In this document: positions 20,247-54,008 of the stretch, in pieces
Numbering within the stretch: the stretch's first letter is position 1
Layout of the letters: the number at the start of each line of letters is the position of its first letter
From: Xiphias gladius
Taxonomy: Eukaryota; Chordata; Actinopteri; Istiophoriformes; Xiphiidae
Assembly (NCBI RefSeq): GCF_016859285.1
Contig: NC_053422.1
Coordinates: 18,178,001-18,242,000, forward strand
Direction: 5' to 3'
DNA: 64,000 nt
Made by a program: the position numbers and the translations under genes
The notes under the pieces: model-generated
Database searches by the model: none
Told to the model about the DNA's origin: nothing
What the model saw: only the letters and a program-made list of their open reading frames with translations

Positions 20247-20981
20247 GACCTCTTTGGCCTTATTTCTGGACACATTAAAATTCATTCAAACTCTGCACCA
20301 GCTCTGTCTGTTCGGCCTACTTTGCACAATCACAGTTTCAGTTATGAGGTTCTGAGACCTAAATGACTGTAGTTCAAACAACACATGCACTTAGATTGAG
20401 ACTTGGGTAGATAACATCAGTTGGCTGCGCAGAGACACTGTTCCTGTGTTGTTCTGCTGACCAGTAGTTGCCATTTTAACTATGTGTGGAAAAAGGCTGT
20501 TTTATATTTTGTAATAGCATGAAAGGTGAAAAACACCTGGAAAAGTTTAGCTATATAATCAAATGGGTACTTATGAAGATATGTTTTCTTTCTGAAACTA
20601 AAAAGTAATCAAAGGTCATTTCTTTTACTAAAGACTGTTTTTATGCCTTTTATTGACAAAATTTCATTTAATGTTTAGATTATGTTAGCTTTTGCCATGT
20701 CTTATACCTTCATGAATATGTTTACTAAAGTTTTCTAGAAATATACTGTACATACAAAAATCCATATGTTTTGGGACTGTTTCTGTTTTATAGCTCTTTT
20801 TATATAAAATAACTTGCCCATTTGAATAGAAAAAATACTGATTTCCGTTGCTTGTCAGTTTCATAACCATTTACGGAAATAATATGAATGTTAGTTAATA
20901 ATCAAGATAAACAGAATTTTCCAATTTACTGTATATAAAAATGACTAAAAGCTCACAGGTTCAGTACAAGACTTGCAGTGG
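20247..20981 (+). other. glod5: glod5 3' UTR and flank
   Basis: Non-coding, AT-rich. Its first 200 bases reappear, inverted and diverged, in both units of the tandem duplication, which shows that exon and UTR moved together. Confidence 0.5.
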
Positions 20982-23900
20982 AAATTTAGTGAAAAGGAGA
21001 TTTTCTCTCTGAGTGCTTCATTGACACTGTTGTGTAGAACCAGGTAAGTCCGTGACGGTGCGTACACATATATGTAAGTATGGGCTGGGATACAGGCAGA
21101 ATGTGTATATGTAAAATAGACCAAGTGTATATTTTATATATCAAGTATATCAGTATGTTGCTGTGTGGACTACGCACTGGCTGTGACGATGAAGACTATC
21201 CATCTAGCAAGCGAATTTTAGGTCTCCTGAAACCCCTGGGTATCCATTATACCTCCTGTTGGGTCTCAACATGCAACTTTGACTTTTCGTGAATTCAAAC
21301 GAAAATCTGAAAGTTTGGGATAAGTTAAAAAAAATTAACTGTTAGCATTTCCCTGCCTATTTGGCTAAGTTTAGTAACCAAAGCTCAATGAAACCTTGTT
21401 GTCATGACTTCTGTCAACATTTCATGAGCATGAATTTAGCTTATTTTATATTTTAAGGTTATTAGGTATGCCCGTACACCTGTACAGTCCATATTTTGCT
21501 ATTAGTCTTGTGATTATTTGTCTCTTGCTTCAGGTCATGCATCCCATTGCCTGCTCTGCATGTTTCCACCAGTATGGCAATGCCAGCTCTGACGGCAGTG
21601 AAAAAAGTGTGCCACCTAAAGATTGTAAAAAAAAAAAAAAAGGCAGCAGACATCTTTTGAGTGACAGAACATGAGGAAGAGGTACAACAACATACATTCA
21701 GTTAACAAGGGGACAACAGTACAGGCATGAGTTTGGGCAGCCATGTCGGTTATTTCGAAAGAAGTCTTAATTTACCCAGAATTCATAGCAAATTAGCCCT
21801 GCTTAAAACAAATGAAGAACTTGACAGCTTTGTGTAACGGATGAATTTATACGTCTATCTGAAATCTTACTAGTAGTTTGATCTAAGCCATAGTTTGTCT
21901 GAGGTACAGCTTCTGTGGCAGAGGATTTCTGACAGGAAGTGTCCTTTAAAAATAAATACACCATCCATCAGGCTTGTATGGAGCAGAAGAACACCTAGAA
22001 AGACACAGTGTTTTCTTGTAAATGTTTTCATTGCTGAATATTTTCACCAGTGAAGTTAAAAAAAAATAAAAAATTTAAAAAAAGCCACACTTGCCATTCA
22101 AAAAACAGAGAAAAACAAGATCTGTTTAAAGACTACATACGAGTGGGCATTTTGCAGCAAACAAGTACTGTGCAAGTACCGTGTATGCACCAAATAATGT
22201 GACACTTTTTGTTATTACCATTACTATTTTTTTTTTTTTTTTACAATTTTTAACCAAACTTTTACTATTATATGTTGTTGGAAAAAGGCAGTTAGTTTTT
22301 GTGTAAACACAGGAATTGATCGCCTGTATCCACAGCTTTTAGATAAACAAAACAGATCAGCACAATGTTCTGTGTCCACAGCAGGCACCGTATTGTCTAA
22401 AATTAATGAAGCCATATTGATTTGAGCTAACACACATGGGTGAGCCAAAAATCACTTCAGTTGTCGAATTAAAATCATTTAGACTAGACTATTTTGGTCA
22501 CGTCTATCATTTTTTTTCATCTTCGGTAAGAGAGCAATATATATATATATATATATACACTATAAACAGGTTTCCTTAAAGCTCCACAGGTTAGGTTACA
22601 ACTACATAGTACACTGTGTGCTCTGAATTAACATAACAAAGACCATTGGAACAAATGTGTAAAGTTCTCCTTGATGCAAAACATAGTAGCCCAAGTTTTG
22701 TTCCTTATACAGCTGACAGGTCAGAGGTTAACCAGGGTACATCTATTTTTTAAAGGTTTAAACCCCCCCCCAAAAAAAGCTAATTTATAATGGAAAATAC
22801 GGCACTGGATGAATGTTGTATGGAAAGATCATCTTAAGTTATTGCTGTGGTTGACCATCAGGTTCTTTCCCTATGTTGTAAACAAAGCAAGAGAGGCAAA
22901 GTCTTTCACAAGTACAGAGGGAATAATGACATCACTGACTGATGTCACTTTGACTAATATGTAAATACCTAATAGTTATAAAGACACTTGAGTTTTGTAC
23001 TTTAGGATAAGGAACTGTGGTCACTGAATAAAAACGTTTCCTGGAGTAACGAGGAAAGACTGGCACTGTGTAACACTGCAAAACAGGGCAATGCCTTCAG
23101 ATGATCTGTCCTAAATATAAAGCATAACAGCTATTATATGACTGACATTATGTGGCTAATGACTAAACAAAGAATCTTAAAAAAGGACATTAGCAATGAA
23201 CGTGTCACAGGAATTTTGAGTAACCAGCCAATTAGAAAAAGTATGTTAGTGAGAATTGTGAATATTACTGGTATTATTATACACATCATGATATATTACT
23301 GCAAAGTTTTTCCTGCACTGACACTTCCTGCATTCCTGTGTTTTATCATAAGTGAAAGTTCCAATGGTAAATACAGAAAATGAAGACAAAGGACCCTTGG
23401 CAGCCAAAAGTATCCCCTTAGATGTTATAGTGTAACATGACCAGTTGGCTTTTTTATTAGGAAACACTCAATAAAAAGGGAGGGAATTCAGACACAATAG
23501 ACATGAATTACAGGTGTATAGTTTTCAGACTTTCTCCACTCACAGCAACACACCGACTATAAAATAGTTGTGTAATCTCAGATGTCTATTGACAAGCGCC
23601 TCTTTACACCTATAGCTGTAGATGGAGTTTCCATACAACAACTGCTGAACAAATTATATTTAATGTCTAGGTTTACGGTCAGGAAATTGAGAAAGGATGT
23701 ATATATTACTCATAATGCTTCTCACACATAGGTATCAGAGTAAATAGAAGTAATAACTGGGTTATCATCTTATCACTGATATATGAACGGATAACATACA
23801 AAGGTACAGTATGACTGTGCTTTGATAGGGAGTGCATGAAAATCCATAGAGGAAAATGAAAGCTGTCTATTGTTTTTTGTACATTATATTGCGACATACA

Positions 23901-24204
23901 GGAAAAATAATGAATATGGGGAATCATGGTCTGAAGACGGAAATATTCAGTACTGAGAAAATACAATACCTGGTTGGGGAAAAAATTAATCATTGACCCA
24001 ATATTTGGTCTAGAATATGTAATGTACTAGTGCGGAGCTTATTTTGTCTGTTCGGTTTCTCTTCATCAAATTAAAAAAAAAAAAACATCTTAAGTAATCA
24101 TTTCACCATACAGCACTAGATTTTCAGATGTTGACTGTTTCACTTTGTATTCTACTACGAAAAAATAAAACAGCGTTTTTCAAGTATAATTAAAACCCCT
24201 GGTC

Positions 24205-24499
24205 TAAAATGCAGGAACAGTGTCTCTGCACAGCCAACTGATGTTATCTACCCCAGTCTCAATCTAAGTGCATGTGTTGTTTGAACTACAGTCATTTAGG
24301 TCTCAGAACCTCATAGTTGAAACAGTAATTGTGCAAAGTAGGCCGAACAGACAGAGCTAGTGCAGAGTTTGGATGTATTATGAGGTCTCAAGAAGATTCC
24401 TCTAATGTTGACTGCTTATAGTTTAACACTTCAATGAGATTGTGGTCTTGATTTCTGAAGTACAGAGAGGTAATGGTCCCCACAGCACCACTCCTCTCG
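24205..24499 (-). pseudogene. glod5: Inverted copy of glod5 last exon plus 3' UTR (unit 1)
   Basis: The reverse complement aligns with glod5 20134-20440: the last exon from [14 protein letters not shown] to its stop, then the UTR with a deletion of roughly 25-30 bases. The glod5 frame can still be read (LYFRNQDHNLIEVLNY, then a changed tail ending ESS). No upstream glod5 exons accompany it, so it is a fragment. It abuts a direct-orientation piece of the same UTR (24500-24600), giving a fold-back junction. Confidence 0.85.
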
Positions 24500-24600
24500 G
24501 AACACATGAAAATACATCCAGACTCTGCACCAACTCTGTTCATTTGGCCTATGTTGCACAATTACTCTTTCAGCTATGAGGTTCTGAGACCCAAATTCCA
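24500..24600 (+). pseudogene. Direct copy of glod5 3' UTR fragment (unit 1)
   Basis: Aligns in plus orientation with about 20267-20362 of the glod5 3' UTR (ACTCTGCACCAACTCTGTTC, CTATGAGGTTCTGAGACC). It begins exactly where the inverted exon copy ends. A second copy lies at 28296-28395 in unit 2. Confidence 0.8.
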
Positions 24601-24770
24601 CAAAAAATTCATGACATGGCAATGATCCCGAACACACAGCAAAAATCACGCTAGAGTTTTTAAAGAAGAAAAAAGTAAGTCACTGTATTTACAGATAAAA
24701 GTCCCCATTGGATATACTGTATGCTTGTGCGGAGTAGTTTTGCATGTGAACTTTAGTAGCGATTGTATGA

Positions 24771-27700
24771 AAATTTAGTGAAAAGGAGATTTTCTCTCTG
24801 AGTGCTTCATTGACACTGTTGTGTAGAACCAGGTAAGTCCGTGACGGTGCGTACACATATATGTAAGTATGGGCTGGGATACAGGCAGAATGTGTATATG
24901 TAAAATAGACCAAGTGTATATTTTATATATCAAGTATATCAGTATGTTGCTGTGTGGACTACGCACTGGCTGTGACGATGAAGACTATCCATCTAGCAAG
25001 CGAATGTTAGGTCTCCTGAAACCCCTGGGTATCCATTATACCTCCTGTTGGGTCTCAACATGCAACTTTGACTTTTCGTGAGTTCGAACGAAAATCTGAA
25101 AGTTTGGGATAAGTTAAAAAAAAATTAACTGTTAGCATTTCCCTGCCTATTTGGCTAAGTTTAGTAACCAAAGCTCAATGAAACCTTGTTGTCATGACTT
25201 CTGTCAACATTTCATGAGCATGAATTTAGCTTATTTTATATTTTAAGGTTATTAGGTATGCCCGTACACCTGTACAGTCCATATTTTGCTATTAGTCTTG
25301 TGATTATTTGTCTCTTGCTTCAGGTCATGCATCCCATTGCCTGCTCTGCATGTTTCCACCAGTATGGCAATGCCAGCTCTGATGGCAGTGAAAAAAGTGT
25401 GCCACCTAAAAGATTGTAAAAAAAAATAAATAAATAAAAAAAAAGGCAGCAGACATCATTTGAGTGACAGAACATGAGGAAGAGGTACAACAACATACAT
25501 TCAGTTAACAAGGGGACAACAGTACAGGCATGAGTTTGGGCAGCCATGTCGGTTATTTCGAAAGAAGTCTTAATTTACCCAGAATTCATAGCAAATTAGC
25601 CCTGCTTAAAACAAATGAAGAACTTGACAGCTTTGTGTAACGGATGAATTTATACGTCTATCTGAAATCTTACTAGTAGTTTGATCTAAGCCATAGTTTG
25701 TCTGAGGTACAGCTTCTGTGGCAGAGGATTTCTGACAGGAAGTGTCCTTTAAAAATAAATACACCATCCATCAGGCTTGTATGGAGCAGAAGAACACCTA
25801 GAAAGACACAGTGTTTTCTTGTAAATGTTTTCATTGCTGAATATTTTCACCAGTGAAGTTAAAAAAAAATAAAAAATTTAAAAAAAGCCACACTTGCCAT
25901 TCAAAAAACAGAGTAAAACAAGATCTGTTTAAAGACTACATACGAGTGGGCATTTTGCAGCAAACAAGTACTGTGCAAGTACCGTATGCACCAAATAATG
26001 TGACACTTTTGTTATTACCATTACTATTTTTTTTTTTTTTACAATTTTAACCAAACTTTTACTATTATATGTTGTTGGAAAAAGGCAGTTAGTTTTGTGT
26101 AAACACAGGAATTGATCGCCTGTATCCACAGCTTTTAGATAAACAAAACAGATCAGCACAATGTTCTGTGTCCACAGCAGGCACCGTATTGTCTAAAATT
26201 AATGAAGCCATATTGATTTGAGCTAACACACATGGGTGAGCCAAAAATCACTTCAGTTGTCGAATTAAAATCATTTAGACTAGACTATTTTGGTCACGTC
26301 TATCATTTTTTTTCATCTTCGGTAAGAGAGCAATATATATATATATATATATACACTATAAACAGGTTTCCTTAAAGCTCCACAGGTTAGGTTACAACTA
26401 CATAGTACACTGTGTGCTCTGAATTAACATAACAAAGACCATTGGAACAAATGTGTAAAGTTCTCCTTGATGCAAAACATAGTAGCCCAAGTTTTGTTCC
26501 TTATACAGCTGACAGGTCAGAGGTTAACCAGGGTACATCTACTTTTTAAAGGTTTAAACCCCCCCCCCAAAAAAGCTAATTTATAATGGAAAATACGGCA
26601 CTGGATGAATGTTGTATGGAAAGATCATCTTAAGTTATTGCTGTGGTTGACCATCAGGTTCTTTCCCTATGTTGTAAACAAAGCAAGAGAGGCAAAGTCT
26701 TTCACAAGTACAGAGGGAATAATGACATCACTGACTGATGTCACTTTGACTAATATGTAAATACCTAATAGTTATAAAGACACCTGAGTTTTGTACTTTA
26801 GGATAAGGAACTGTGGTCACTGAATAAAAACGTTTCCTGGAGTAACGAGGAAAGACTGGCACTGTGTAACACTGCAAAACAGGGCAATGCCTTCAGATGA
26901 TCTGTCCTAAATATAAAGCATAACAGCTATTATATGACTGACATTATGTGGCTAATGACTAAACAAAGAATCTTAAAAAAGGACATTAGCAATGAACGTG
27001 TCACAGGAATTTTGAGTAACCAGCCAATTAGAAAAAGTATGTTAGTGAGAATTGTGAATATTACTGGTATTATTATACACATCATGATATATTACTGCAA
27101 AGTTTTTCCTGCACTGACACTTCCTGCATTCCTGTGTTTTATCATAAGTGAAAGTTCCAATGGTAAATACAGAAAATGAAGACAAAGGACCCTTGGCAGC
27201 CAAAAGTATCCCCTTAGATGTTATAGTGTAACATGACCAGTTGGCTTTTTTATTAGGAAACACTCAATAAAAAGGGAGGGAATTCAGACACAATAGACAT
27301 GAATTACGGGTGTATAGTTTTCAGACTTTCTCCACTCACAGCAACACACCGACTATAAAATAGTTGTGTAATCTCAGATGTCTATTGACAAGCGCCTCTT
27401 TACACCTATAGCTGTAGATGGAGTTTCCATACAACAACTGCTGAACAAATTATATTTAATGTCTAGGTTTACGGTCAGGAAATTGAGAAAGGATGTATAT
27501 ATTACTCATAATGCTTCTCACACATAGGTATCAGAGTAAATAGAAGTAATAACTGGGTTATCATCTTATCACTGATATATGAACGGATAACATACAAAGG
27601 TACAGTATGACTGTGCTTTGATAGGGAGTGCATGAAAATCCATAGAGGAAAATGAAAGCTGTCTATTGTTTTTTGTACATTATATTGCGACATACAGGAA

Positions 27701-28473
27701 AAATAATGAATATGGGGAATCATGGTCTGAAGACGGAAATATTCAGTACTGAGAAAATACAATACCTGGTTGGGGAAAAAATTAATCATTGACCCAATAT
27801 TTGGTCTAGAATATGTAATGTACTAGTGCGGAGCTTATTTTGTCTGTTCGGTTTCTCTTCATCAAATTAAAAAAAAAAAAACATCTTAAGTAATCATTTC
27901 ACCATACAGCACTAGATTTTCAGATGTTGACTGTTTCACTTTGTATTCTACTACGAAAAAATAAAACAGCGTTTTTCAAGTATAATTAAAACCCCTGGTC
28001 TAAAATGCAGGAACAGTGTCTCTGCACAGCCAACTGATGTTATCTACCCCAGTCTCAATCTAAGTGCATGTGTTGTTTGAACTACAGTCATTTAGGTCTC
28101 AGAACCTCATAGTTGAAACAGTAATTGTGCAAAGTAGGCCGAACAGACAGAGCTAGTGCAGAGTTTGGATGTATTATGAGGTCTCAAGAAGATTCCTCTA
28201 ATGTTGACTGCTTATAGTTTAACACTTCAATGAGATTGTGGTCTTGATTTCTGAAGTACAGAGAGGTAATGTCCCCACAGCACCACTCCTCTCGGAACAC
28301 ATGAAAATACATCCAGACTCTGCACCAACTCTGTTCATTTGGCCTATGTTGCACAATTACTCTTTCAGCTATGAGGTTCTGAGACCCAAATTCCACAAAA
28401 AATTCATGACATGGCAATGATCCCGAACACACAGCAAAAATCACGCTAGAGTTTTTAAAGAAGAAAAAAGTAA
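24771..28473. repeat. Tandem duplication, unit 2 (3.70 kb)
   Basis: Second unit of the same duplication. The best length marker is at 25418-25444, where a poly(A) run of unit 1 is interrupted by TAAATAAATAAA. The (TA)n tract recurs near 26334-26352. Confidence 0.95.
28001..28295 (-). pseudogene. glod5: Inverted copy of glod5 last exon plus 3' UTR (unit 2)
   Basis: Same fragment as 24205-24499, carried in the second duplication unit. One base is missing relative to unit 1 in the TAATGGTCCCC region, which shifts the frame there. The LYFRNQDHNLIEVLNY block remains open. Confidence 0.85.
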
Positions 28474-30299: not shown

Positions 30300-33200
30300 T
30301 CATTGCAGCTGCGAGAGAATGGCGGTGCAGTCCTCAATCCTTTCCAGTTCCTCCACCACGTCAATCAAGCACTCAACCTTTTCTGAAGGAAGCACGATCC
30401 TTGCGTTGTTTCTGAACTTCTTCCTCAAGCTCTCATTGGTCAGTGGGTTGCGCCAGTGACCATAGAAGGTGTCACAGCGTCCCTTCAGAATGTCTCCCCC
30501 AACAAGTGTCACCTGGACTTCGCCATACATGCGGTTGAAGTTAGCCGTGTTGTCATGGGGATGCTCCATGTGAACGCGGCTCAGCAGAGCGAGCAGCTCA
30601 GGGCGGCTCATGGCCGCAGGTGTGAAGGACTGCACAGTCACCTCGCCATCCAGGAGAGCGCTGCAAGCATTGAACTGGAAGGAGTGGCGTGCCTCATGCT
30701 CAGACTCAGGGAAAGGCCTGTTGATGTACTTTGATTTGGGGACTCTGAGCAGGATGTCCTGGATTTGAGCTGGGGAGACAGTGCCAGTGCCAACTCCCAC
30801 AAGAAGCTTATGGATGGAGGCTGCAGCATCTGCCACCCAGTGCATCCCCAGGTGGGCAGGGAAGCGCTTGAAGCCTATGTCCTGCTCCTCTAGCAGGAAA
30901 ATTTGGCCATCACCATTGGGTGATTCTAAAGGCTGTGGCACGTAGTCTTCATAGAAAGCACTGAAGCCAGCCACCCCTTCGACAGCATCCAGGACCAGGC
31001 GACTTGCCTCTAGGCCTCGGGAGGCCAGCAGAGCAGCCTCCAGCCCCAAACGTGAAGCATTGCCTATGTGGAAGGGTTTAGACTGAGTGGCAGCATTAGC
31101 CATTGGGGCTCCAGATAGAGAAGCAGCTATGGCCAAGGCATGACTGCACTGGGAGTGATCCAAGGACAAGAGGTGAGCACAGGCAGCTGCACTTCCCATT
31201 GTCCCTACCACAGTGGGAGGGTGAAACCTGGAGGTGAGAAAGACGGAGAGAGGACAGACTTTGGTCAGTTGTTTTGGAACTATTTAGTCTTGTGACTGAA
31301 GGAGCATTTTAAATAGGTGCTCCCCATCATTATGGTTACAGGTTAGCTCCTGTGTGTAAAGGTGTCTTTTTGTACAAACAGCTTCTCTTTTACGTAACTC
31401 TCCTCTCAGTCCTCTTTAGTCATTTGACTACTTGATAAACAAACAAACAATGTGGTGGGTCATTGACTTGGTGTAAACACTTGCCAAATGGAGTCCTGTG
31501 TAATACACTCTTCCACATGGCTAATTATGCTAACACTAACCACAGAGCCTCTGCTGTCCCTGAGATGGACATAATAACCGGTCATTCACAGCACATTGGC
31601 ACCACTAAGAGACTGCACATTACACTGCACAGGCCGTCTTGTAAACCACACTGCAGAGATCAGCGCAGTCAAGTATGGATCTCCCTTGGCTCATGTGTAT
31701 ACTTGTACTCTGTTTAGAGTATAATTGAAAATACCTTCAACAAGGAACTGGCTTTATATCCATTAAATGATCACTTAGGTAAAGTACAAAACCTGCTGCT
31801 ATTAGCCTATAAATTACAGTATCTATGTCCAATTTGACTCATGTCCTGAGGTGCACACCTCTTGGGGATGTTGTGGGCCTCATTAGAGAACCTCAGCAGT
31901 CGACCCTGGATCTCGATACCGACATTGAAAGCCAGCAGGAAGTCCAGGCCAGTAGGTTTGCTGTTAGGGGGCATCATGTCACTGAGTGCTAACACAGCAG
32001 GAAGGACTGCTCCTGAGGGATGAGTGGCAGGGTGCCATGTATCATCAAAGTCCATGGAGTGAGTCTGAAGCAGGAACATTTTAATAATGAAATGGTTGTA
32101 AATAATAGATTCTTTCATACTGAAAACAATTAGATAATTATTCATTTTTTTTACAATCCGGCGAGCAAGAACATAAGGTTGTTTTGCTTCATGAGAAAAT
32201 ACAGCAGCTAACTGCAAACTTTGCGACTGTGTTTTAATGATGCAGTATATCTCTCTTCACCCATCACCTTTCTTGGTTAACACTCACTCCCTAACTGCTC
32301 TCCACGGCCAGTGTATTTTAATTGGAAAATCTCTGTAATTGCCGTAACAGGTTTCAACTGTTCAACTGTATCAGAGGCAAAGGAAAATGGCAGGAATTAG
32401 CTTTGCATCCTTATGGCCTCTTGGATTGGACGCCCAGCAATGTTTGCAGACATGATGATGGAAACTCATTTGGAAAAGTCAATTTAGTATTTTCACCAAC
32501 CCCTCCTGTAGTTGTCTGCCCAGACTGTACTGTAGCTGTGTATAAAATAGCCATAGTTTGGTTGTGGTAATGGATTTAGTGCGTCTAAAATTGTCTGGCG
32601 TACTAGGGACAATGGTGACACATCTGTTCCACCTATTTATACTCACTGCCACTCCATTGACAAAAGCTGCCAGTGTCGGGGAGAGCCTGGTGCCCCTGCG
32701 TCCGTATACAAAGCTGACGTCATCATGACCATACATTTGCTGAGGGGAAAAGACAGTAACAGGTGAACAGGGAATCATCGCAAGGGCAGTTTTAACGCAA
32801 TATTTTACAGTCATCAAACACACAGAACACATAACGTGAACTTTACTTTTAATAGCTTGGGCACATCACTCTTCAATTAATGATGGCTGAATAAGTTTCT
32901 TTGTAAGTCATATGTCAATGAGGGAAATTTGGGGAAAAAGGTCATCGGTCATAAAAAACCTGTCTGTTCCCAAGTTATATGACTACAATTATTAAAATAA
33001 TATCCAGTGCTTTCTTTCCATCTTCTCATCTGTCCACACACAGTATTTGTACTGACTTAGGACGATTGTTTATATAAGGTCAGGTATTTGCTTTCATCTG
33101 TCTCATTGCCTCATATCATTTAATTGCCTTGTACCTTTTTTCCCTCTCCTATGCCTCACCTGACAGTGCTGCAGGGCCAGTTCAAACACATCTGTTGTGC

Positions 33201-33891
33201 TGCCAATCAGACCAACCCCAATGCTGTCCAGCACCATCCTTTTGCTGCGGTGGAGGACTATGGGGGACAAGTGCTGGGGCTTTATTTCACTGATGAACTT
33301 CCCAAAGCTGGCTGTGACTGTGTCCTCAAGGGCCGGGCGCTTTAAAACTGCAGGGGGAAAGAGCAAGGAATGTAGTGATCAGATAAAAGGAAAGAGGTTA
33401 GGAGTAAGTAAAGAAGAAATGTTTACAAAAAGTTGAGTTTACCTTCTGTTGCCGAGTTATGCAGTCCTCTGACAGCCCACATTGGTCTAATGGTTTTCTG
33501 CAAGACAAATAGGAAACAGAACATCTTTACTGACCCCTGAAAACCACCAAGGAGACCATTTATTGTATTACTATAAGAAATACTAAAGTAATTAGTTTTA
33601 CCGATCCATTACAGGCTGTGGACACATGCAGAGATTTTCTTTGTCAGGCTCAGATCTAATTAAATCATGAATATTACTCTGGCTGGGTGCCTCTTTTGAA
33701 AGACGTTGTGCTGGTGAGGCGGTGCTGCAACAGGTGTGGTACAGCATATGTAACATGCTTAATATTTAGCAAGAGCTCTGTTATATTCTCCACTACCACA
33801 TACTCCCAACAATACCTACACAGTACGAGCTATGTTATGATTTTAAAGTACATTTTTATCTTTAAATCTTTACCTGTAGTGTGGAGATCAT
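30300..33891 (-). CDS. acod1: ACOD1/IRG1-type cis-aconitate decarboxylase, 495 aa
   Basis: Six exons on the minus strand: 33874-33891, 33443-33497, 33160-33347, 32647-32739, 31859-32064 and 30300-31227, with consistent phases, 495 residues (human 481). It belongs to the MmgE/PrpD family and converts cis-aconitate to itaconate, an antibacterial and immunoregulatory metabolite, in mitochondria. Known human active-site positions are kept: D93, T97 and H103 are D123, T127 and H133 here (MDFDDTWHPATH), H159 is H189 (RFHPP), K207 is K237 (QSKPFHIGN), K272 is K307 (FKRFPAH) and Y318 is Y354 (KYINRPFP). The first 24 residues, on two tiny exons, are basic and lack acidic residues until E24 (MISTLQKTIRPMWAVRG), a good mitochondrial presequence. 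Teleosts can have two irg1-type genes; I cannot say which this is. Confidence 0.96.
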
Positions 33892-35319: not shown

Positions 35320-38300
35320 ATGGCAACATTAGATGGGTTTCCAGCCAGTTTCTATGGTGAACCAGGAGTGTTGGGCTTGTTAGCCAATGGGATAAGTGCG
35401 TTCCTCGTACTTTTGCAGAACTTCAATACAGCGCGTACAGGCAGTGCACCAGTAGGAGTGGAGAACATCCTTGCAGGTAAAACATTTGAAAAATCTGCTA
35501 AAATAATATAATAAAAGATCATTTAAAATTGTTCAAGTAATTCCAGTTTTGTGGCTTTTATAGGTGTCCATCTCATCCTGATTGGTGGTATATGCCAATT
35601 GGTGGCTGGACTGCTTTCCTTTAGAAAATATGATCATCTCAGTGGCACTGCCTTCATTGGCTATGCTGCTCTTTGGTGCAGTTATGGTGCCACTCGAATC
35701 TACTTTGGTGCCTTAACGGAAACTCATACATCAGCATCTCTAGCTCATCAAATGACGAACAATTTGTCCCTGTCCACTAATATGATGAGCAACATGTCTC
35801 TGAACACCACCACAGAGATCCCAGTGTGCTTTTTATACCTTACCATAAAAGAATCAGCGATCGCTGGTCTGGTCCCCTATATCCTTCTGTCCTTTATTCT
35901 AGCCTTCTGCTCTGCCACAGTCAACTACCTCATGCCTTTTGTTTTTGGTGCCATCACGGCCTCCTTAGTTTTTGAAGCAGTAGGTCTAGTAGCGAGCTCC
36001 TGGGCTCTTGTGGTCTCTGGGGTTCTTGAGTTGCTCATTCTAATTTTTGCCATTTATGGTTCGGCTACACTGCTCGTCAAAGGTCTGGCTCAGCGTCTAG
36101 TCCTCAAAGGCTTTGGTACCCCTCTCTTTAATGTTCTCCTGCTAGGGACCGCCACCTCAGCAAGTGCCCAGAGCATTGGCCAAGAGAAGAAGAAAAATAC
36201 AAAATATGCAGAGCCCATGGCCTTGGGTTTCTTCTGTGACACAGTTTCCTCCTTCATCTTTGCTTTCTACTGCTTTAGGTATGTTAAGTCCTTTGGCTTA
36301 GGAGCTACATGGGTCTCAGTCATCTCAGTTGCACAGCTTTTTTCAAGCTACTACGCCCATCTGCGCCATGATTGCTATCACACCACTAAGTTTGGTCTTC
36401 ATGCTACATATTGGCTGATCAAGGCTTGGGATGAGTTTGTGGTATCTGCTCTGACTGCAGAGGACAGTGAAGTGTCCTTGGGGAGAAAAGCAATGGTGGG
36501 AGACTGGTTCTTTGTGGTGGCAGGCTTGGTGCTCTGCGTGGGAAGCCTGAACATGGATGTCTTAGAAATGATCCACAACATGCTGTTTGTCCTGCTCACA
36601 GTCTCAACAGTCCCCCAGATCCCTCTCCAGGGTTACTACACCTTCTTTGGTGTAGCTTGCTCCCTGTTCACCGCAGCCTCCCTGTATGGTACCTTCTCAC
36701 GTCTCATCAACACAATAGCAGAGAAGTCTCTCATCCTTGTAGGCCCACGGCCCATCTCCACTGAACAGCTACGGAAAGCTTTAAGGTGCGGCAGGACTAA
36801 ACAGGGAGATCAGGAGGGACTGCCCCAAACAGACCAGGCTTCAGATGCCCTCTTCTACCTTTCAAATGGGGTTGCAGCTCTCTCAGCCATCCATTCGAGA
36901 GTGTCAAGCACAAATCCCTCCTTCCTCCATCTGACTGTCCCTTGGGTCCTCATCTCTGGGGCCATCATCCAGGCCTATGTCAGCCGGCTGCAAGTTACAG
37001 GAGGTGGCCGTTTTGGATCCATCATCTCATCCATCTATGTATTTGTGTGGGCAACCTGGACCTGGTTTAGGTTTGCAGGTACGTAGATACAAATGTGATT
37101 AAATAGAGATTTTTTCTGACTGAATTACACAAAATTCTAATCCCAAGTTGTTGTATTTCCAGGTAACCTGCTACACATTTCCACAGAAGCATCCTACGGT
37201 TTTACAGCAGGAGCCATTGCTTTCCTGGTCATTAATGGTTTCCTCGTGCTGATAGGTAAAGTTAACCACATTGATTTAACAACAAAAAGAAATATTATTA
37301 TGAATATTATTATTACTACTTGACCCAGTTGTCATTCTTTCCAATGTTTATATCAGCTGCCTACAGGAACCTGGTTTTGCTGTTGCTAATAACAGTAATG
37401 GAAGTTGTTCTGGTCTGTTTTCTGCTGTCCACCCTGCAGCGACTGCCATACAGACTAGAAAGTAAGCACAGACAAAGCCTCATTCTAAACGTCTTTTATA
37501 GGTTGTTTTTTTTAATGTAGACACAGGCTTAAATTAAAATTCTATCTGCAAAAAAGCTATCTAATTATCAAGTGTGACTACTTTTTTCTTTTTTTACAGT
37601 TGCCATGCTTGCACTGGTTTCAATCATTTGTATATATGGAGCTCTGGCATCACTGGTCAACTTCATCTTCTCAGAGAGACTGCTACCTATGGGCCCTTGC
37701 TTACTGAAGGTAACTAATCAGAGGACTCTATTGTAGTCCTCTTCTATAGTGGTGTTCATCCTGTTCATTTTATGAACGTGTCCCTCCCTCTGTGGCCTGT
37801 CTCAGGAGAAAGTGAAGCAGGAAACCTCTCCAGAGCTACCCTGTCCTGTTGCTAATTCACGGCTCACCAGTGGTCTCCTGAAGATTGCTGGCCTTCTCGA
37901 GAAAGGCGGAGTGTGCGGTATTCCCACAGACACAGTCTATGCCCTGGCTGCCTCCTGCAAGAATCCTCAAGCTATACAGAAAATCTACAACATTAAAGTA
38001 AGAATGAAAAATAAGGTGATCATTGAAGCGTAATATGGGACAGATCATTAAATCCAATTTCCATATTGTACTTCATGTGATATTCATCAACCTGTTATCT
38101 GTGACCTGCCCCAGGACAGACCGGCAGAGAAGCCCATCTGTATCTGCATCTCTAGCGTGGAGCAGCTGGTAGAAGCCAAGCCTCCCTTCAGTCCTCTGCT
38201 CTGGGAGTTTATGAGGAATGTGTATCCCGGAGGCATCAGCTGCATCGTCAGCAAAGGAGACTGGCTGTTCAAGCTAGGTAAACTGGCTATGGCTGCTGCA

Positions 38301-39041
38301 GTTATACATCTATGACTCAGCTTAGTTTAAATGAATGGCAGTTACCAGTATTCACCTCACTTTTTAAATCATCTTGTTTAGGAGTGGGACCAGCTTATGA
38401 CCGTGTTGGTACCAAGGACAGCATCATGATCCGTGTCCCTGACCACACCGTGACCTGCCACCTATGTGACATCACTGGACCCCTTGCCATTACCTCAGCT
38501 AATCCCAGTGGAGAGGAAGACAGCACCCACCACAGCATGGTTGTCAAGTAAGCGTCCTTTTGCAGAACCTTGCTGTTCTCAAGTCCTCATGCACAGCGGC
38601 GGTTATTCCGCTGACCCACTACACATCGTGCCATGTATCAGTCAGGAGAGATTTATGAACTGCTTGTGCTATAGAAGAATTATTTGACCTATGATAGCAT
38701 TTAATGTCGTTTTGGAAACTACACGCATGTTCACTTACCCCCTCTGCTGCCTTTTATTTTGCTTCAGTCGACTGGGACATAAGATCCAAGGAGTTCTGTG
38801 TGATGGGGACTCTAATGAAGTTGTTGCATCTACTGTGGTCAACTGCCTGAAGATTAATGAAGGTACAATGCAAAAATATTCCCATTACATTCTCTCCTTT
38901 TTGTGTGTTTTAACAGACACTTTCTAACTCAAACACTTTCTTACTCTTTCCACAGGGACCATCACCATTGTAAGGGAAGGCTGTGTCCCTGCAGTAAAAG
39001 TCAGACAGATCTTTGACAGAGTGAAAAGCATGATGGTGTGA
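35320..39041 (+). CDS. Fusion A: acetate-transporter-like multipass membrane protein with C-terminal YrdC domain, 893 aa
   Basis: Ten coding exons: 35320-35476, 35564-37078, 37163-37255, 37357-37461, 37600-37709, 37806-37997, 38115-38277, 38382-38547, 38768-38862 and 38956-39041. All junctions keep frame. Non-coding exon 1 ends at the donor at 34382; exon 2 opens at 35291. Residues 1-660 are hydrophobic, with many membrane segments. They show GPR1/FUN34/YaaH (AceTr) motifs: EPGVLGLLANG (family NPxPLG), then GGICQLVAGLLSFRK with TAFIGYAALW. A second AceTr-like region (AEPMALGFF..VISVAQLF) starts near residue 245 and a third (ISGAIIQAY..GGGRFGS) near 510. Residues 680-893 form a YrdC domain with PTDTVYALA (700-708), the KxR motif K724/R726, IRVPDH and SANPSGE (817-823). 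YrdC makes threonylcarbamoyl-AMP from Thr, bicarbonate and ATP for tRNA t6A. I know no described vertebrate protein of this architecture. Substrate and membrane are unknown. Confidence 0.85.
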
Positions 39042-39913: not shown

Positions 39914-41413
39914 AAGTCCTGAATTTTAAGTACAGAATTTAGAATTTCTTCAGAAATAAATGCAAATCATCCAATTTTGTATAATCAGAATATTTAATAA
40001 AATGTCCAAAGTAACCGAACAACAACAAAAAATGTACGCTTCACACAATTATTGGCATTAATTTGATGAATTTAAATTATTTCCTCAAACAAAATAAAAA
40101 ACAAATGAGACTCATCTTTGCTTAATTGTCAGTGCACAAATGTCCTGAATTACCCAATGAATGACGGTTTTACTGCAAAAAAAGGGGCTGATTGTTTTCA
40201 GTTTCTTTTTCACAAAGGCAATGACAAGAGAGCTGCCTGAGAGTATCAGAAATGCTATAAAAAAAACATAATTCCAAAGGCTACAGGGCAATTACCAAAG
40301 ATCTTGAAATCCCTGGTCCAACAGTTTGTAATGTTTCACACTCATAAAACTGTTAAGACGCTTCTAGGACGTGGAGCTTAGAAGAGACTCTATTAGAGAA
40401 ATCTGCAAAGGTTTATGCAGATTGTGGAAAAAAACACAACGCAAGACATCTAAAGAGCTTCAGGCTGACCTGGAGCAATCAGGAGGGGTGGTTTCAGGCC
40501 GTACCAGATGCCTCACACTAAACCAAGTAGGGCTCCATGGGGGAGGCCAAGGAGGACACCAATATCGATAGAAAGGCACAAAAAGGCAAAACTAATGTTC
40601 GCAAAAACTTTCATAGATAACCCACAGTCTTTCTGGGATCATGTTTTATGACAGCACAGCTCTCTTGGAATGCAGTGCATCAGTTTGTTTATAGGCGACA
40701 AAATGAAGCCCCTAAGGAGAAAAACACCGTACCTACGGTAAAACATGGTGGAGATTCTGTCATGCTGTGGGCTGCTTTGCTATCTGTGGTACTGGAGGCA
40801 CTGAATGTATCAAAGGAATGATGAAATCAGAAGATTACCGAGGCATTATAGACCTAAATGTGTTACCCAGTGTCAGAAAACTAGGTTTAAGGCGAAGGTC
40901 TTGGGTCTTTGAGCAGGACAATGACCCAAAGCAGACATCCAACAGAACAAAAGAATGGTTGAAAAGGAAAAGATCGACTCTTTTAAACTAGCCAACAATG
41001 AGTCCTGACCTAAATCCCACTGAAAACCTTTGGAGAGAGCTGAAATCTGCCACCTCATAAAGGACTCCTGCAAATTAAAAGAGCTTGATCACAGAGCAAT
41101 GGAAGAGTGGCAGAAACTACCAGCAGAGTTCAAGAAGCTTCTAGATGATTACAAGAAACATTTAGAGGCTCATTGTTGCCAAAGGTTCTGCAACCAAAAT
41201 TGGTGAAGTGTGCCAGTAATTGTGTCTGGGGTACATTCTGTGTTTGTTTTATTTCACTATTATTTAAGATTTTTGATTTTTGATTTTCTTATGTTCAGTA
41301 ACCTTGGACAAAATATTTTGATTATATAAAATTGGCTATTTCCATTTATTTCTGAAGATATTCGAAATTCCTTACTTAAAATTCAGGGGTGCCAGTAATT
41401 TCAACTGGGACTG
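39914..41413 (+). mobile_element. Degraded Tc1-like transposon (Tc1/mariner)
   Basis: The outer right end reads, on the minus strand, CAGTCCCAGTTGAAATTACT, followed by a terminal repeat of about 100 bases. The left copy starts only at CCTGAATTTTAAGTA, so the outermost 25-30 bases are lost. A TA dinucleotide flanks the right end (41414-41415). Inside, pieces of a DD34E transposase are legible in plus orientation: the HTH region RKTSKELQADL, then FEQDNDPKQTS, then SPDLNPTENLWRELK. They are interrupted by many stops and frame changes, so the element is dead. Old insertion between the two fusion genes. Confidence 0.92.
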
Positions 41414-44830: not shown

Positions 44831-45580
44831 TTACACCCCATTGTGTACTGGTACATGCAAATCATACTCAAAAGCTGGATTGGTCTGCCCCTGTACTTGT
44901 CTCCTCTGAACCTCCTCAAAGATCTGCAGAACCTTCAAAGCAGGCAAACAGAGGCAGAGAACATTAGCGTGAGCATGCAATAAACTGGAATTGTTTACTC
45001 TGAACGAACAGAACGATATATTAATTTTACCTTGGATTTAGGAATGAGACCCACCCTGAAGAAACCAATGTGTCCTTCCTCAATCTTAGTGCAATCAACC
45101 ACAGTAGATGCAATGTTCTCTGGGGAGGGGCCATCGCATAGAACACCATCCACCTAACCAAGCAAAATGCACAATATAGTTTACAGCCAAAAATAAAAAC
45201 ACAAGCACTTCTCGTATTTAATAAAACTATATTATAGTCATTACCTTGTCTACCAGTTTGGCATAAACTTGGTTGTGGTGAGTTGTGTCTGCCTCGCCGG
45301 TAGGGTTGGCTGAGGTTACTGCAATGGGCCCAACCTGCAAGAATAAGAAGTAGTTATATTCACTAAAGGCTCTGCTGACAAGTTTGATTCATAGACGTGT
45401 AATGTTTCTCATACAATGACCATACCAGATTAATGAGGTGGGTGGCCACAGAACAGTCTGGGTTTCTGATAGCAATGCTCTGTTGAGTCCCTATGTGTTT
45501 GGCAGCATCTCCCAAACCAAAAGTGTCCATCCATGGACCTGTGTAAGACACCCATCATGCAAAATGAGGCAGCCACACAG

Positions 45581-45656
<76 letters not shown>

Positions 45657-48600
45657 TTACACGTTCAAATAAGCAAACGTCCACACACAGACACGCCTAC
45701 CTCTGGGTATAACCATGCTAATGGAGGAGGGCCACGCAGCTTGCATGAAGTCCAGCAGTAAGGGGTTCAGCAGGTGTCGCACCGGATCTAGCTGCTTAAT
45801 GGAGGAGATCCACATGGACATGGGTCGGTCCTGCGCCTGCTTCTTCACCCTGAAGTCAAACACACCCATTAGAGAGTAATGAGAGTCAATCAATAAATGA
45901 ATACGGATAAGGGCATGCTCACGAAAATAGAAACTCACTTGTAAGCTTTAACAACTGCATCAGGCCTGTTGCAAGCTGCAACCAGCACATAGACAGTGTC
46001 AGTAGGTATTCCACATATGCCACCATTTTTCATGATTTCTGCAGAAGGGAAGAGAAGACAACAAATCTCACATCAAGTTACATAAATAGATTTTTATTCT
46101 AGAAATCAACATTACTGTCTTTTATATCTCACCTGCAATCTGCTGGACAGATGTGGCCTTGCGGGCTGGTACATGTGGACATACATCTGCGCCTCCCCCA
46201 ACACCTCTCAGCTTGACTAAAGGTCTCCCTAAGGGGATCTGGGGGGACTGGAAGGTGCTGTTGAAAATGTGGCCCAGGAAACAATAAAAACTGACGAGAC
46301 CAAAGATGATGGTGACACCTATGTCATAACCATAAGGCAGAACACCCACTGCATCCAGCAGGAAGCTAATGAGGATGAGCTTGAAGGTGAAGGTGTAGGC
46401 AAACCAGGCGACATTTAGAAACAGCGCTGCAGCTGTCACTAAACAGTTAAACAGCATGAAGCTAATGATCCCGACAGCCAAATCAAAGCTTCTGGTTTCC
46501 CCGTACAGGCCGCCGTATCGTGTCAGCCCCCACACTGTCCACATCATCCCATAGAGAATAAAAACTGTGCTCTCAAAGGTTTTACCCCGAGCGTAAGCTA
46601 CTGAGCCACAGAGCAGCTGGAGTGCCCCACCAGCCACCACCACCCAGGGCAGAATCAGTACATGCAGAGGATTTCTGTCACCAACTGTAGCTGTGACAGC
46701 AAAAGCAGCCAACACGCTGCAGGCGTGGCCTAACACTTCTGCATCTGCATATTTGGAGTAGCCCAGGTGAGGTGTATGTAGCTCTTTATCATGTGCTCTG
46801 AGAGTAAGACCCTGTATCCTGGTTACTAAAACCTTGAAACAGCCCTGCCCTGTGGGAATCATGGTATGGGAGACCATGTTAAATGTGGTAATTAAAAGCA
46901 TGCCGGCAGAGACTATAAATATGGCTGCCTGTACACCCTGAGTGCCTCCTTGGAAGAAGCCCTGAGGCTGGGCTGCAATGGCAATACAATAGGCTGCATA
47001 GAATAATTGGTAGAGCCCCTCCAGCAAGCTCCTCTGACAACTGAACAGAGCCAGGATGGAGAAAAGCACAGAGAAGACGACAGGGAAGGGAACTGGGGAG
47101 AAAGGCTGGATTGAGTAGAACGATAAGAGAGCACTGTAACCTTCTGCAAATTTCAACAGAGCAGTGAAGCCATAAAAAGTGGCAGCTAGTGTGTCCATGG
47201 CTCGGTAAAAGAGGACACACATGGTAAGCTGGAAGACTCCAGCGGTCCACAGCCAGGGGACATGACCGGTGAAGAGCCGGGGGACCACACCTAAAAGAGG
47301 ACAGGCTAACACAGAGGCAGACAACAAGTTCATCGCCAAACTCACTGACACTGCGTCGCTACAACTCAGGTTCTGCTCTGTTTTAAGGTCAGCTTTTCTC
47401 TTCAAGCCTGTTCCTGGAAGTTCCACTTTACCGTGAGTGATAGTGAAGAGCAGACGCCCACAACCAAAGTAAGCACCAACCAGACAGACGACAAGGTAGT
47501 TAGCAGCTGTGGCAGACTGACCAAAGCCTGCAGCCGACAGACCAGCGATTTGATGAGCGCATGCTAAGCTAATAGTGAAAGCTATTAGAGACAGAACTGC
47601 TTTCTTTACTATGAGTGCAACGCTACCTATGATGAGAAGAGCTAATGTAAACGCTGCCAGACCAGGGACCAGAGATGATCTCAGCTCTGTTGGCTGCAGC
47701 ACTCTCTGCCCCACCAGGATGTACACCAGACCTGAACCACACCACAGGGCAGAGACAGTCAGACACAGGGACGAAAACAGCTGGGCGTGGGACAGACTGC
47801 GGCGGATACCTTGGAGAGACACAGAGCAAACAGAGAGGAAAAAAATCAGCCAATAGCACAAATGAACAAACTAAATAAAATTGGTGATATGCAGTCATCC
47901 AAACCAACCTGTATAAGCTAAGAGGGCTGCAATGATGAGAAGCAGAATCCCCAGTGCAGTGTATGGGATTAATTGTTTTTCAGGTGAGCTGGCATAGTCG
48001 TTCACCAAAAGCAGGAGAGAACCTGTAAGTCAGAACAAAAGCCATTATCTAAAAAACTCATCTAAAGTAACTAAACCTAGGTGCCATGTAAAAACTGTTT
48101 TTTTTTTTTTTTTTATAACATTTGATTAAAAAAGATGCGACTTTACCCTCTCCAACAGCAACAGCAGGTGTCTGCCTAAAACTATGACGAACTGAAAAGT
48201 TTCCGTTTCCATTCCCTCACGTGGTTACAGTTTATGCGGCGAGTTCATAATATCTGCAGCGGTGTGTTTGTTTTCAAGAACAGTGCTGTTTTTTTTTTTC
48301 TGTTCAGGTTTCATGTTTTAGGGTCACCTGCTTAAAACGTAAACATGTTTTGTTACATTTTTTTATTTTATAACAATGTGTGAGTTTATTTTTAGCACGT
48401 GGTACCACGATAGTTAAATATTAAAATAGAAGAGATTTGCGTGCTTGTTGAATTTTGAAACCAGAATACAGTATGATATTTGTCATATTTATATGACGTT
48501 CTTGACGATAAGTAACGATAACATAACAGCAGAGAGTAGGCTTCTGACTGTTTGGTACGAATGCTTTAAAAAAAAAAAAAAGGAAATCGTCACTGGACGG

Positions 48601-48673
48601 TGACAATAACAATCTTACCGCCAGAGAGGCCCAGGATGCCCACGGACACAGGCACTGAGGCGCGGCGAGCCAT
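44831..48673 (-). CDS. Fusion B: paralogous multipass membrane protein with C-terminal YrdC-like domain, 840 aa
   Basis: Nine exons on the minus strand: 48619-48673, 47909-48022, 46133-47809, 45939-46038, 45701-45849, 45426-45538, 45245-45334, 45031-45153 and 44831-44932; phases agree and the product is 840 residues. Residues 1-610 are a string of hydrophobic segments. The clearest AceTr-like motif is GGALQLLCGSVAYARGKTF followed by STVFILYGMMWTVWG. Residues 616-840 are YrdC-like: PTDTVY (627-632), SANPTGE (744-750), DGVLCDG, ASTVVDC. Compared with fusion A the ATP/phosphate-side KxR motif is changed (K651-K-Q653) and IRVPDH reads IRNPDC, so catalysis may be lost. Two YrdC introns fall at the same place as in A (after the YNIK/AYK block, and phase 1 before GPAYD/GPWMD), so A and B descend from one fused ancestor. 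The transporter portion has fewer introns than in A. Confidence 0.83.
45581..45652. repeat. (CA)n microsatellite in a fusion B intron
   Basis: About 36 CA units on the plus strand, so (UG)n in the fusion B transcript. It takes up nearly half of the 162-base intron between exons 5 and 6. Confidence 0.97.
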
Positions 48674-48709
48674 GGCAGAAGTGGACCCGCGCAACCCTGG
48701 GGCCGCGCG

Positions 48710-48716
48710 TTTTATA
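48710..48716 (-). promoter_or_regulatory. TATA box of fusion B
   Basis: The minus strand reads GTATAAAACGCG. The first base of TATAAAA lies only 43 bases upstream of the ATG at 48673, so the 5' leader would be about 10-15 bases unless transcription starts elsewhere. Confidence 0.6.
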
Positions 48717-48726
48717 CAGCTGCGCG

Positions 48727-48735
48727 TGACGTCGG
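48727..48735. promoter_or_regulatory. CRE/ATF-like site upstream of fusion B
   Basis: GTGACGTCGG contains the TGACGTC core, just upstream of the fusion B TATA box. A second copy of the core (ATGACGTCGA) lies near 49358-49367 upstream of gatd3l, so the divergent pair shares it. Confidence 0.4.
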
Positions 48736-49305
48736 CGGGCACGCGAAACCCGAGAGGAGAAGCGGCACCGCGCGGGGAAGTTACACACAGCCGACGCTGC
48801 GCAGACAAGAGAGGGGGCTGCTCTCACGGCGACCCCGTAGGCACCACCTGTCGGTAGGCGAGGATACACGGGATAGCCGTCAAAGTTACACCTGTGTCAT
48901 ACACTCCATACGCTTATGTGGGTGTTTGTCCTAAACAATAACATTTCTTAAAGTCCAAATATCAACACGCCTTGTTCTTGTAGTACGCAAACAAAAAGGT
49001 TGATCATTTAATAATAACAGGTCTGATGATTTAGGTAGCTTATGTGTTATGTTTCTAGACAAATCTCTAGCCTCCATCTGTGCTCCCTAATGCGGAAATG
49101 AGGAGAACATTATACCTAATACACCTGTTTTTAAAAAAAATAACTTCATATACATTAATTGGACAAAATATCTAAAAAGGTAGAGCGTGTGAAGTTGTTT
49201 ACAATTTAAAGGTGAGCCTTTAGTAAATTAACCACGTAGTCTAAATGTGTCCTCATCGTATCATCAGTTTTATTCGTCATTTTTTTTCTCACAACACCGA
49301 GAGGA

Positions 49306-52408: not shown

Positions 52409-54008
52409 TCATGTGCTTTTGCTGGAGAAATGATTGAAATGATCTGTTCCACAGGCCAACACTGTGGCGTTAAATTTCCTGTGACGATCTGGATCCTAAC
52501 AGGAAGAGAAAGGGTCAGAATCAATACACAAGTCAGAGACTATAAAATTATAACCTGCACAAATACAGGAATTAATTTATTCTTATGTATGTCTCACCAG
52601 TATGGGGTAAGCACAAGTGGGAACATAACGGATCACAAACCCACAGCGCCTCCTCTTGGATGTATTGGCATCACTGCCATGGACAAGGAGTCCATCGTGG
52701 ATCTTTTCAAACAAATCCAATATCCTAATTAATTCACTTTGAACTGTACTCAAACCTATTAATAGTCTTATGGTCTTAAACAACTAAAATGAGCTCACAG
52801 ACATCTGCCCAGCCAACAGAGGGCAGAACACTGCTCCATCGGCCTGCACCAGCTCCTCTGGGATCTCCTGGTTGACCGACAAGATGTTTCCAGGGCGGGT
52901 GGCTTGGTGATGGGGCAACATGCCAGAGCAGTGGCTGCCTACAAGGGCACAAACAAACAAAAAAATTCAACTCTGTGAAGCAGGTTGTTGATTCCAGAAA
53001 GTAAATCTATTGTTGTTATTCCACACTGGAAAAATAATGAAGGCTAAGACTCTTTTTTACACATCACCAGGACAGTGGCTAAAGGGATCAGTGTGCATGA
53101 GAAGTATAAATGAGCAGCTGACGTACCTGGGATGACCTGAAGGGTGCCGTTTTCTTTCAGTGAGTCATCTAAAGCGAGCCACACAGAGAGAACAGGGCCA
53201 CCAGCAATACCCCAGTACCTGTGAACACAACAATTACAGTTAGACAAAACAAAGCAAATGAAAACAAAATCTCATACTGTTTTATCAGTATCTAAAATCT
53301 ACCTCATATCCTGATGCCATGCCACGTATGGAAGTCCACTCTCTGCCATCTTCCCGTCAGCTTCGGTTACTCCCTCTTCATTCTCCTGGATGTGGGCTGG
53401 TTTGAGTGCCGGGTATTTGCAGATGAAGCGGGAGTCCAACAGGATGACGTCAGGGCCCAGGATGGCTTTGACCACTTGCAGGATACGAGGGTGTTTGGTC
53501 AGGCCCATCACCCACAGATACTGAAGGTGAACATTGTGGAGGCTGTATTGGGTGTACTCTTCACCTGGAGATACACGAAAATATATAATATACCTATTCA
53601 CTGACAAATTGTGTGACACTTAAGCCTTATCATATCTATACTTTCCTGTACATAGACAAGAAAAGGTAGATTCATGTGGAACATGGAAATTAACAGTCTC
53701 ATGTTCCACATTATTTTCAGAAATGGCAGTATAGAAATGTATAGAGATACTGCAAATTAGAATCCCTTTTCACACAATTGTAATGCATTTTGGTCTTATC
53801 AGTTGCTACTGACCATTTTCTGCATTCCATCTTTCTATGACTAACCCCCAGACCCAAGTATCTTCTAGTGATACTCACCGAATTCCTTCTCCAGCTCAGA
53901 AAAGGCATCCCTGGCCTCCCTCAGCTCTGTCTCACTCAACACCGGCAGTGCTGAGAGAAAGCCTTGCTGGTTGTAGATCTCCCGCTGTTTAGCCGCGGAT
54001 GTAGTCAT
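52409..54008 (-). CDS. PhyH-family Fe(II)/2-oxoglutarate dioxygenase, 271 aa
   Basis: Six exons: 53879-54008, 53303-53564, 53127-53218, 52799-52938, 52598-52702 and 52409-52495, in frame, 271 residues. The fold is phytanoyl-CoA dioxygenase-like. Iron ligands are visible: H127-x-D129 in AWHQDMRYWG and the distal His, probably H216, in IHDGLLVHGSDANTS. The 2-oxoglutarate-binding Arg is likely in SKRRRCGFVIRYVP. Other family blocks are PVLSVWLALDD, NGTLQVIPGSH and DPDRHRKFNATVL. This pattern is closer to bacterial PhyH/EctD-type hydroxylases than to human PHYH or PHYHD1, whose sequences do not line up well from memory. Substrate unknown. Earlier in-frame codons to 54056 lack an ATG, so MTTSAAKQ is the start. 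A non-coding exon at about 54766-54806 with its own TATA box lies upstream. Confidence 0.88.

Follow-up and report, generated by a model that had tools for sequence, protein, structure and literature searches.

Introduction

SatP is a succinate/acetate carrier with its N-terminus in the cytosol. It belongs to the Gpr1/Fun34/YaaH (AceTr) proteins, the known substrates of which are acetate, succinate and lactate (PMC13316224). Ghasemi et al. (2026; iScience, 22 June 2026; PMC13316224) described vertebrate ATOs as proteins of about 900 amino acids in which three AceTr units precede a C-terminal Sua5/YciO/YrdC domain. These proteins form two vertebrate clades and are reported from every major vertebrate lineage, with mammals as the exception, in which none was found; a dimer imitating the SatP hexamer was proposed (PMC13316224). 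YrdC enzymes consume ATP, bicarbonate and threonine and carry out carboxylate adenylation (PMC9654439), and a KxR/SxN tetrad serves to recognise TsaC/Sua5 orthologs (PMC10321239). ACOD1 enzymes form itaconate via decarboxylation (PMC11814083), and the transporters described for itaconate in mammals are MCT1/MCT4 and ABCG2 (PMC12658120).

Here we analyse a 64,000-nucleotide stretch of swordfish (Xiphias gladius) DNA (NC_053422.1, positions 18,178,001 to 18,242,000, forward strand; hereafter the window), in which two genes of the ATO type accompany the ACOD1-like gene irg1l (Table 1). The first-pass annotation of this DNA had taken the fusion for a design unknown in vertebrates, a claim overtaken by the June 2026 report; because PMC13316224 describes it, the architecture is not new. 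What is added here is the pairing with irg1l, the loss of the KxR arginine in the clade of the second gene and the co-regulation with irg1l. The terms itacon-, irg1, acod1 and synten- were not found in the main text of PMC13316224, nor was a link between irg1l and the fusions found in the CC-licensed PMC literature. The tie to irg1l gives a published fusion family that has no function attached to it a direct test, namely whether it provides a microbial-type carrier for fish itaconate.

Table 1. Features of the window discussed in the text (positions of the window; aa, amino acid positions in the encoded protein).
Feature	Position	Strand	Description
irg1l / ACOD1-like cis-aconitate decarboxylase	30300..33482	-	5 coding exons, 484 aa, intact
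Divergent intergenic region, irg1l to fusion start codons	33483..35319	.	1.8 kb
AceTr3-YrdC fusion gene	35320..39041	+	10 coding exons, 893 aa; ortholog of si:ch211-153b23.3
AceTr repeat 1	35359..36102	+	about aa 14-232, exons 1-2
Repeat 1 helix 3-4 loop	35701..35856	+	aa 99-150; N-glycosylation sequons at aa 119, 129 and 133; predicted extracellular/lumenal
AceTr repeat 2	36199..36747	+	aa 265-447
AceTr repeat 3	36826..37697	+	about aa 474-656; exons 2-5, introns counted in
YrdC/TsaC domain	37806..39041	+	exons 6-10, aa 661-893
KxR motif (K724, D725, R726)	37995..38120	+	interrupted by exon 6/7 intron
SxN motif (S817-A-N819)	38495..38503	+	Thr just before, as in TsaC
Second AceTr3-YrdC fusion, si:ch211-153b23.4	44831..48673	-	9 coding exons, 840 aa; KxR without its arginine
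C-terminal tail of second fusion	44831-44932	-	NPxF/NxxF region
PhyH (phytanoyl-CoA dioxygenase family) gene	52409..54008	-	possible extra neighbourhood member; exon 4/5 join provisional; end read from sequence

Triplicated AceTr units joined to a YrdC domain

The fusion gene is the swordfish counterpart of si:ch211-153b23.3 (hereafter.3), the name that NCBI gives the fusion ortholog in other fish. Its exons were assembled by eye from genomic sequence, as would suit a prediction that had fused two adjacent genes. Such an artefact has a negligible probability: uninterrupted fusion proteins of 879-892 amino acids are encoded on contigs of 2.8-3.2 kb in the homolog listing, the YrdC domain PF01300 is carried by at least 120 of the 303 reported homologs (all 120 of those listed, the species-named ones being fish), and the domain order is identical in the paralog si:ch211-153b23.4 (hereafter.4) and in the ATOs of PMC13316224. 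The swordfish fusion is thus confirmed as a real gene with its domains correctly assigned. With its triplicated AceTr part, C-terminal YrdC domain and length of about 900 amino acids, it has the make-up of a vertebrate ATO.

The matches to PF01184 and PF01300 uphold the initial proposal that one gene joins an AceTr-like membrane part to YrdC, and its further suggestion that AceTr segments recur about three times is borne out by SatP fold matches, PF01184 and the helices of an ortholog. In the profile search PF01184 matched the fusion at aa 11-115, within repeat 1, at 33.3 bits against a cutoff of 25. By fold, SatP is the clear match to repeats 2 and 3, and in each the agreement extends across almost all of the domain. 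Repeat 1 aligned with SatP at an E value of 0.01, and its helices are present, at low confidence, in the ortholog model. The six-helix SatP fold is found in the AceTr part of the fusion, which we interpret as a putative membrane carboxylate transporter with three AceTr units in one chain.

The AceTr signature NPAPLGL is degenerate in the fusion (EPGVLGL, aa 14; EPMALGF, aa 269). At the FLY constriction, Phe aligns with Asn, Tyr is retained and Leu could not be placed. The degenerate signature together with the replacement of the constriction Phe by Asn suggests that the pore may have changed use. Several Candida members of AceTr likewise deviate (PMC13316224).

At least one N-glycosylation sequon lies in the helix 3-4 loop of repeat 1 in all 103 parsed.3 orthologs (17 of the 120 were unparsed), with a mean of 3.2 sequons per loop against 1.14 in shuffled loops. 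The N-terminus of SatP is cytosolic, and the loop would be extracellular if the same holds for the fusion. Sequon enrichment in a loop predicted to be extracellular points to the secretory pathway rather than to mitochondria and to a cytosolic YrdC domain; the even number of helices would likewise place YrdC on the N-terminal side of the membrane. The fusion probably resides in the plasma membrane or in an endolysosomal membrane and would expose its YrdC domain to the cytosol.

Intact and arginine-less YrdC domains

The YrdC fold and PF01300 are both present in the fusion, and the KDR and TSAN motifs of the window gene agree with the early description of its YrdC motifs as intact. They are also conserved across.3 homologs: KxR in all 114 parsed proteins (5 of 119 were unparsed and 1 of 120 lacked the anchor) and TSANP in all 119 that bear the PTDTVY anchor. 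The homologs of.4 retain SAN and STVVD, and their YrdC domain is 45% identical to that of.3; the third KxR residue is other than Arg in all 108 parsed (11 of 119 were unparsed), the motif being mostly KKQ, with Gln in its place. The KxR/SxN tetrad is thus complete in.3 and incomplete in.4, and because Arg is missing from 108 of 108 parsed homologs we do not class.4 as a threonylcarbamoyl-AMP (TC-AMP) synthase. Judging by these motifs, the YrdC domain of the.3 clade looks catalytically competent, while the.4 clade appears to have retained the domain minus the arginine. The pair offers a natural experiment on the role of a YrdC domain attached to a carrier. The swordfish fusion YrdC is 28% identical to human YRDC. 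The YrdC domains of.3 and.4 also have in common a six-residue insert (about GTKDSI or GTQQSI) before the IR motif, which is missing from the sequences compared with them (human, Thermotoga and archaeal).

The second fusion gene and other features of the window

The paralog.4 sits 6 kb downstream of.3 and its window model is 99% identical to Xiphias gladius protein P0241. It scores 21.0 bits for AceTr, below the cutoff of 25, and 109.7 bits for YrdC. Among parsed proteins, the C-terminal tails of.4 are long (median 54.5 residues) and those of.3 short (median 4). Of 102 parsed.4 tails, 79 contain NPxF and 101 contain NxxF, whereas none of 49 parsed.3 tails contains NPxF. NPxF resembles an endocytosis/PTB-binding motif. 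The.4 start codon is closely preceded by a TATA-like TATAAAA within GC-rich DNA (48619-48760, minus strand).

The window also contains RING and DUF4683 domain genes, presumably RLIM and NEXMIF. Open frames at 40370-41090 resemble transposase remnants, by their look presumably of a Tc1-like element. A direct tandem duplication of 3.7 kb (20979-24678 and 24768-28473, 99.1% identical) reflects either a recent duplication or an assembly artefact. The protein of the PhyH gene, joined by hand, matches PF05721 at 79.5 bits and has a WHQD motif. A list of Shigella-response genes that includes irg1l also has a zebrafish PHYHD1-like gene, a candidate counterpart of this PhyH gene (PMC6980646).

The neighbouring irg1l gene

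The fusion and irg1l are arranged head-to-head, an orientation seen in the swordfish window. The irg1l protein is 100% identical to the Xiphias gladius protein 'immunoresponsive gene 1, like' (P0121), matches the MmgE/PrpD families PF03972 (220 bits) and PF19305 (144 bits), and has as its best PDB match the cis-aconitate decarboxylase 7br9 (544 bits), which we take to be mouse ACOD1. The residues D93, H103, H159, K207, K272 and H277, from the list of ACOD1 catalytic residues in PMC12259180 and PMC11814083, are all retained. Human Tyr318 we take to be Y343 of irg1l, where 120 of the 121 proteins in the alignment have Tyr and the other has a gap; at the literal position Lys stands against Gln and the Tyr follows one residue further, an offset that we ascribe to a one-residue difference between human and mouse numbering. 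By its domains and catalytic residues, irg1l fits ACOD1/IRG1 and is a putative itaconate synthase. In an earlier study irg1l responded early to bacteria, possibly in the epithelium (PMC3206475).

Outside fish, a cis-aconitate decarboxylase of turtle (P0240) shares 67-69% identity with three fish irg1l proteins and 58% with the ACOD1 of 7br9. Being nearer to fish irg1l than to ACOD1, it seems to mark IRG1L as a second, older paralog that survives outside fish; the name IRG1L is also used for chicken (PMC11171086). We predict that mammals lost IRG1L along with the fusion. In prokaryotes, no convincing AceTr gene was seen near irg1l relatives at the 18 loci inspected.

Linkage and co-regulation of the fusion genes and irg1l

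Genes were called linked across fish when their contig sizes were equal; the size belongs to the cluster record, and the call shows a shared contig, not adjacency. The rows entered were 104 of 120 for.3, 102 of 120 for irg1l (the remainder of both being without a contig size or on transcript-size contigs) and 62 of 120 for.4. Among the 42 species present in both lists,.3 and irg1l shared a contig in 35, the exceptions being Anguilla anguilla, two Coregonus, Oncorhynchus mykiss, Salmo trutta, Scophthalmus maximus and Tachysurus vachellii. The.4 gene was on the irg1l contig in 38 of 42 species (exceptions: Amia ocellicauda, Astyanax mexicanus, Oncorhynchus mykiss and Syngnathus typhle) and on the.3 contig in 36 of 41, with Dissostichus mawsoni included as differing (36 of 40 without it). 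All three genes were on one contig in 19 species, gar among them, and.3 and irg1l share a contig in sturgeon and bowfin. In Scleropages,.3 and irg1l are on a single 25.7-kb contig. Of the 10 species in which both genes have numbered locus tags, 7 have consecutive ones, differing by 1 or 10 (Channa striata, Zoarces, Albula, Aldrovandia, Prochilodus, Acnodon and Mugilogobius); the tags are non-consecutive in Danionella, Siganus and Coregonus suidteri. The linkage of.3,.4 and irg1l is therefore widespread in ray-finned fish. In a binomial calculation with a chance of 1 in 24, the probability of 35 of 42 is about 1e-41, but this treats species as independent, which they are not. Neighbouring genes widely stay together in fish through conserved synteny. 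For both reasons contig linkage is support and not proof, and because fish neighbours generally stay together linkage alone is weak evidence of a common function.

We used the log2 changes over 18 exposures in Table 2 of PMC8877790 and correlated 64 zebrafish genes with irg1l; three rows had missing values, of which two were scored without the missing value and tfr1b was left unscored. The fusion genes.4 (r 0.90),.3 (r 0.88) and.5 (r 0.86) ranked 2, 4 and 5 of the 64, in a table of changed genes only, which inflates the correlations for all. Two genes not known to be linked to irg1l, sult5a1 (0.91) and si:ch211-207n23.2 (0.90), track it as closely as the fusions, and the next gene is at 0.62. 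As a side reading, sult5a1, si:ch211-207n23.2, the fusions and irg1l form a small shared regulon. Other zebrafish studies agree: irg1l,.3 and.5 are hubs in one inflammatory module (PMC11140123), irg1l,.4 and.5 make up three of the five genes that a study of PFOS exposure lists as upregulated (PMC9228135), and the same three are adjacent in a list of host genes from Shigella-infected larvae (PMC6980646). The fusions and irg1l are thus co-regulated in published zebrafish data. In the CC-licensed PMC literature, six papers name zebrafish or stickleback fusion genes; irg1l appears in four of them and is absent from two.

Candidate functions

We give about an even chance to the fusion being a transporter for itaconate-type carboxylates whose YrdC domain lies in the cytosol and serves as a regulatory or enzymatic module. 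Itaconate is methylene-succinate, SatP carries succinate, and irg1l adjoins the fusion; every step from neighbourhood to cargo is inferred. IRG1L, encoded head-to-head, would make itaconate, and itaconate or a close relative would be the likeliest cargo that the triplicated AceTr part moves across the membrane. YrdC might gate the carrier through ATP and CO2/bicarbonate, CO2 being given off during itaconate synthesis, or it might instead act on the cargo by adenylating a carboxylate. The mechanism suggested in the first-pass annotation, a carrier coupled to an enzyme or sensor that uses ATP and bicarbonate, may hold as well; it took no account of the head-to-head irg1l gene or the downstream second fusion. 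The.3 and.4 proteins could be partners in a six-unit SatP-like ring,.4 being the one with weakened catalysis. Rather doubtful is the more elaborate proposal of a dedicated fish itaconate cluster, in which IRG1L and the divergent, co-regulated.3/.4 six-unit ring would serve epithelial or phagosomal membranes under gating by ATP and CO2/bicarbonate. Weighing against an itaconate cargo are the degenerate AceTr signature, the 18 prokaryotic loci without a convincing AceTr gene, the other genes co-regulated with irg1l, the species in which linkage fails and the two papers on fusion genes that do not mention irg1l.

The main rival, quite possible though short of probable, is that in inflamed epithelium the fusion transports a different carboxylate, such as acetate, lactate or succinate, and that irg1l lies nearby through old synteny and shared inflammatory control, with no handling of itaconate. 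The known AceTr substrates (acetate, succinate and lactate; PMC13316224) suit this account, as do the presence of sult5a1 and si:ch211-207n23.2 in the irg1l-correlated set and of further old neighbour genes in the window, but it sits less easily with three tandem paralogs at ranks 2, 4 and 5 of 64 and with a linkage that holds across distant fish. It is improbable that the membrane part senses a carboxylate without net transport while YrdC reports the ATP, bicarbonate or threonine state, as in a transceptor. The degenerate signature and constriction residues would fit such a sensor, and so would the YrdC domain of.4, well conserved (45% to.3) despite loss of the KxR arginine in every parsed homolog, as expected for ligand binding without catalysis; the SatP fold retained over almost the entire domain in repeats 2 and 3 argues against it. 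Very unlikely, finally, is a membrane-tethered TC-AMP synthase serving tRNA t6A in inflammation, with the carrier as anchor or threonine supplier: the complete tetrad of.3 and the TsaC-type Thr before SxN (motif use as in PMC10321239 and PMC9654439) favour it, against the low identity to human YRDC and the linked paralog without the arginine.

Comparison with known systems

The two fusion genes of the window have the architecture of the vertebrate ATO family (PMC13316224) and count as its members in swordfish. SatP and Ato1 (PF01184) have one unit per chain and the NPAPLGL signature, whereas the swordfish fusion has three units in one chain, a degenerate signature and an added enzyme domain. 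From the TC-AMP synthases TsaC/YRDC and Sua5 the fusion differs by its attachment to a membrane carrier and by a YrdC identity of about 30% or less to the sequences compared; no SUA5 domain was seen in it, and its paralog.4 differs further by the missing Arg. The HypF/TobZ YrdC-Kae1 fusions likewise have YrdC in a multidomain protein, where it makes an acyl-adenylate for the partner domain (PMC9654439). That partner is a Kae1 domain, whereas in swordfish it is a carrier. MCT1/MCT4 and ABCG2 belong to protein families unrelated to the AceTr fusion, and their cargo is the one proposed for it here; if the proposal is true, fish use a microbial-type carrier where mammals use MCT1/4 and ABCG2.
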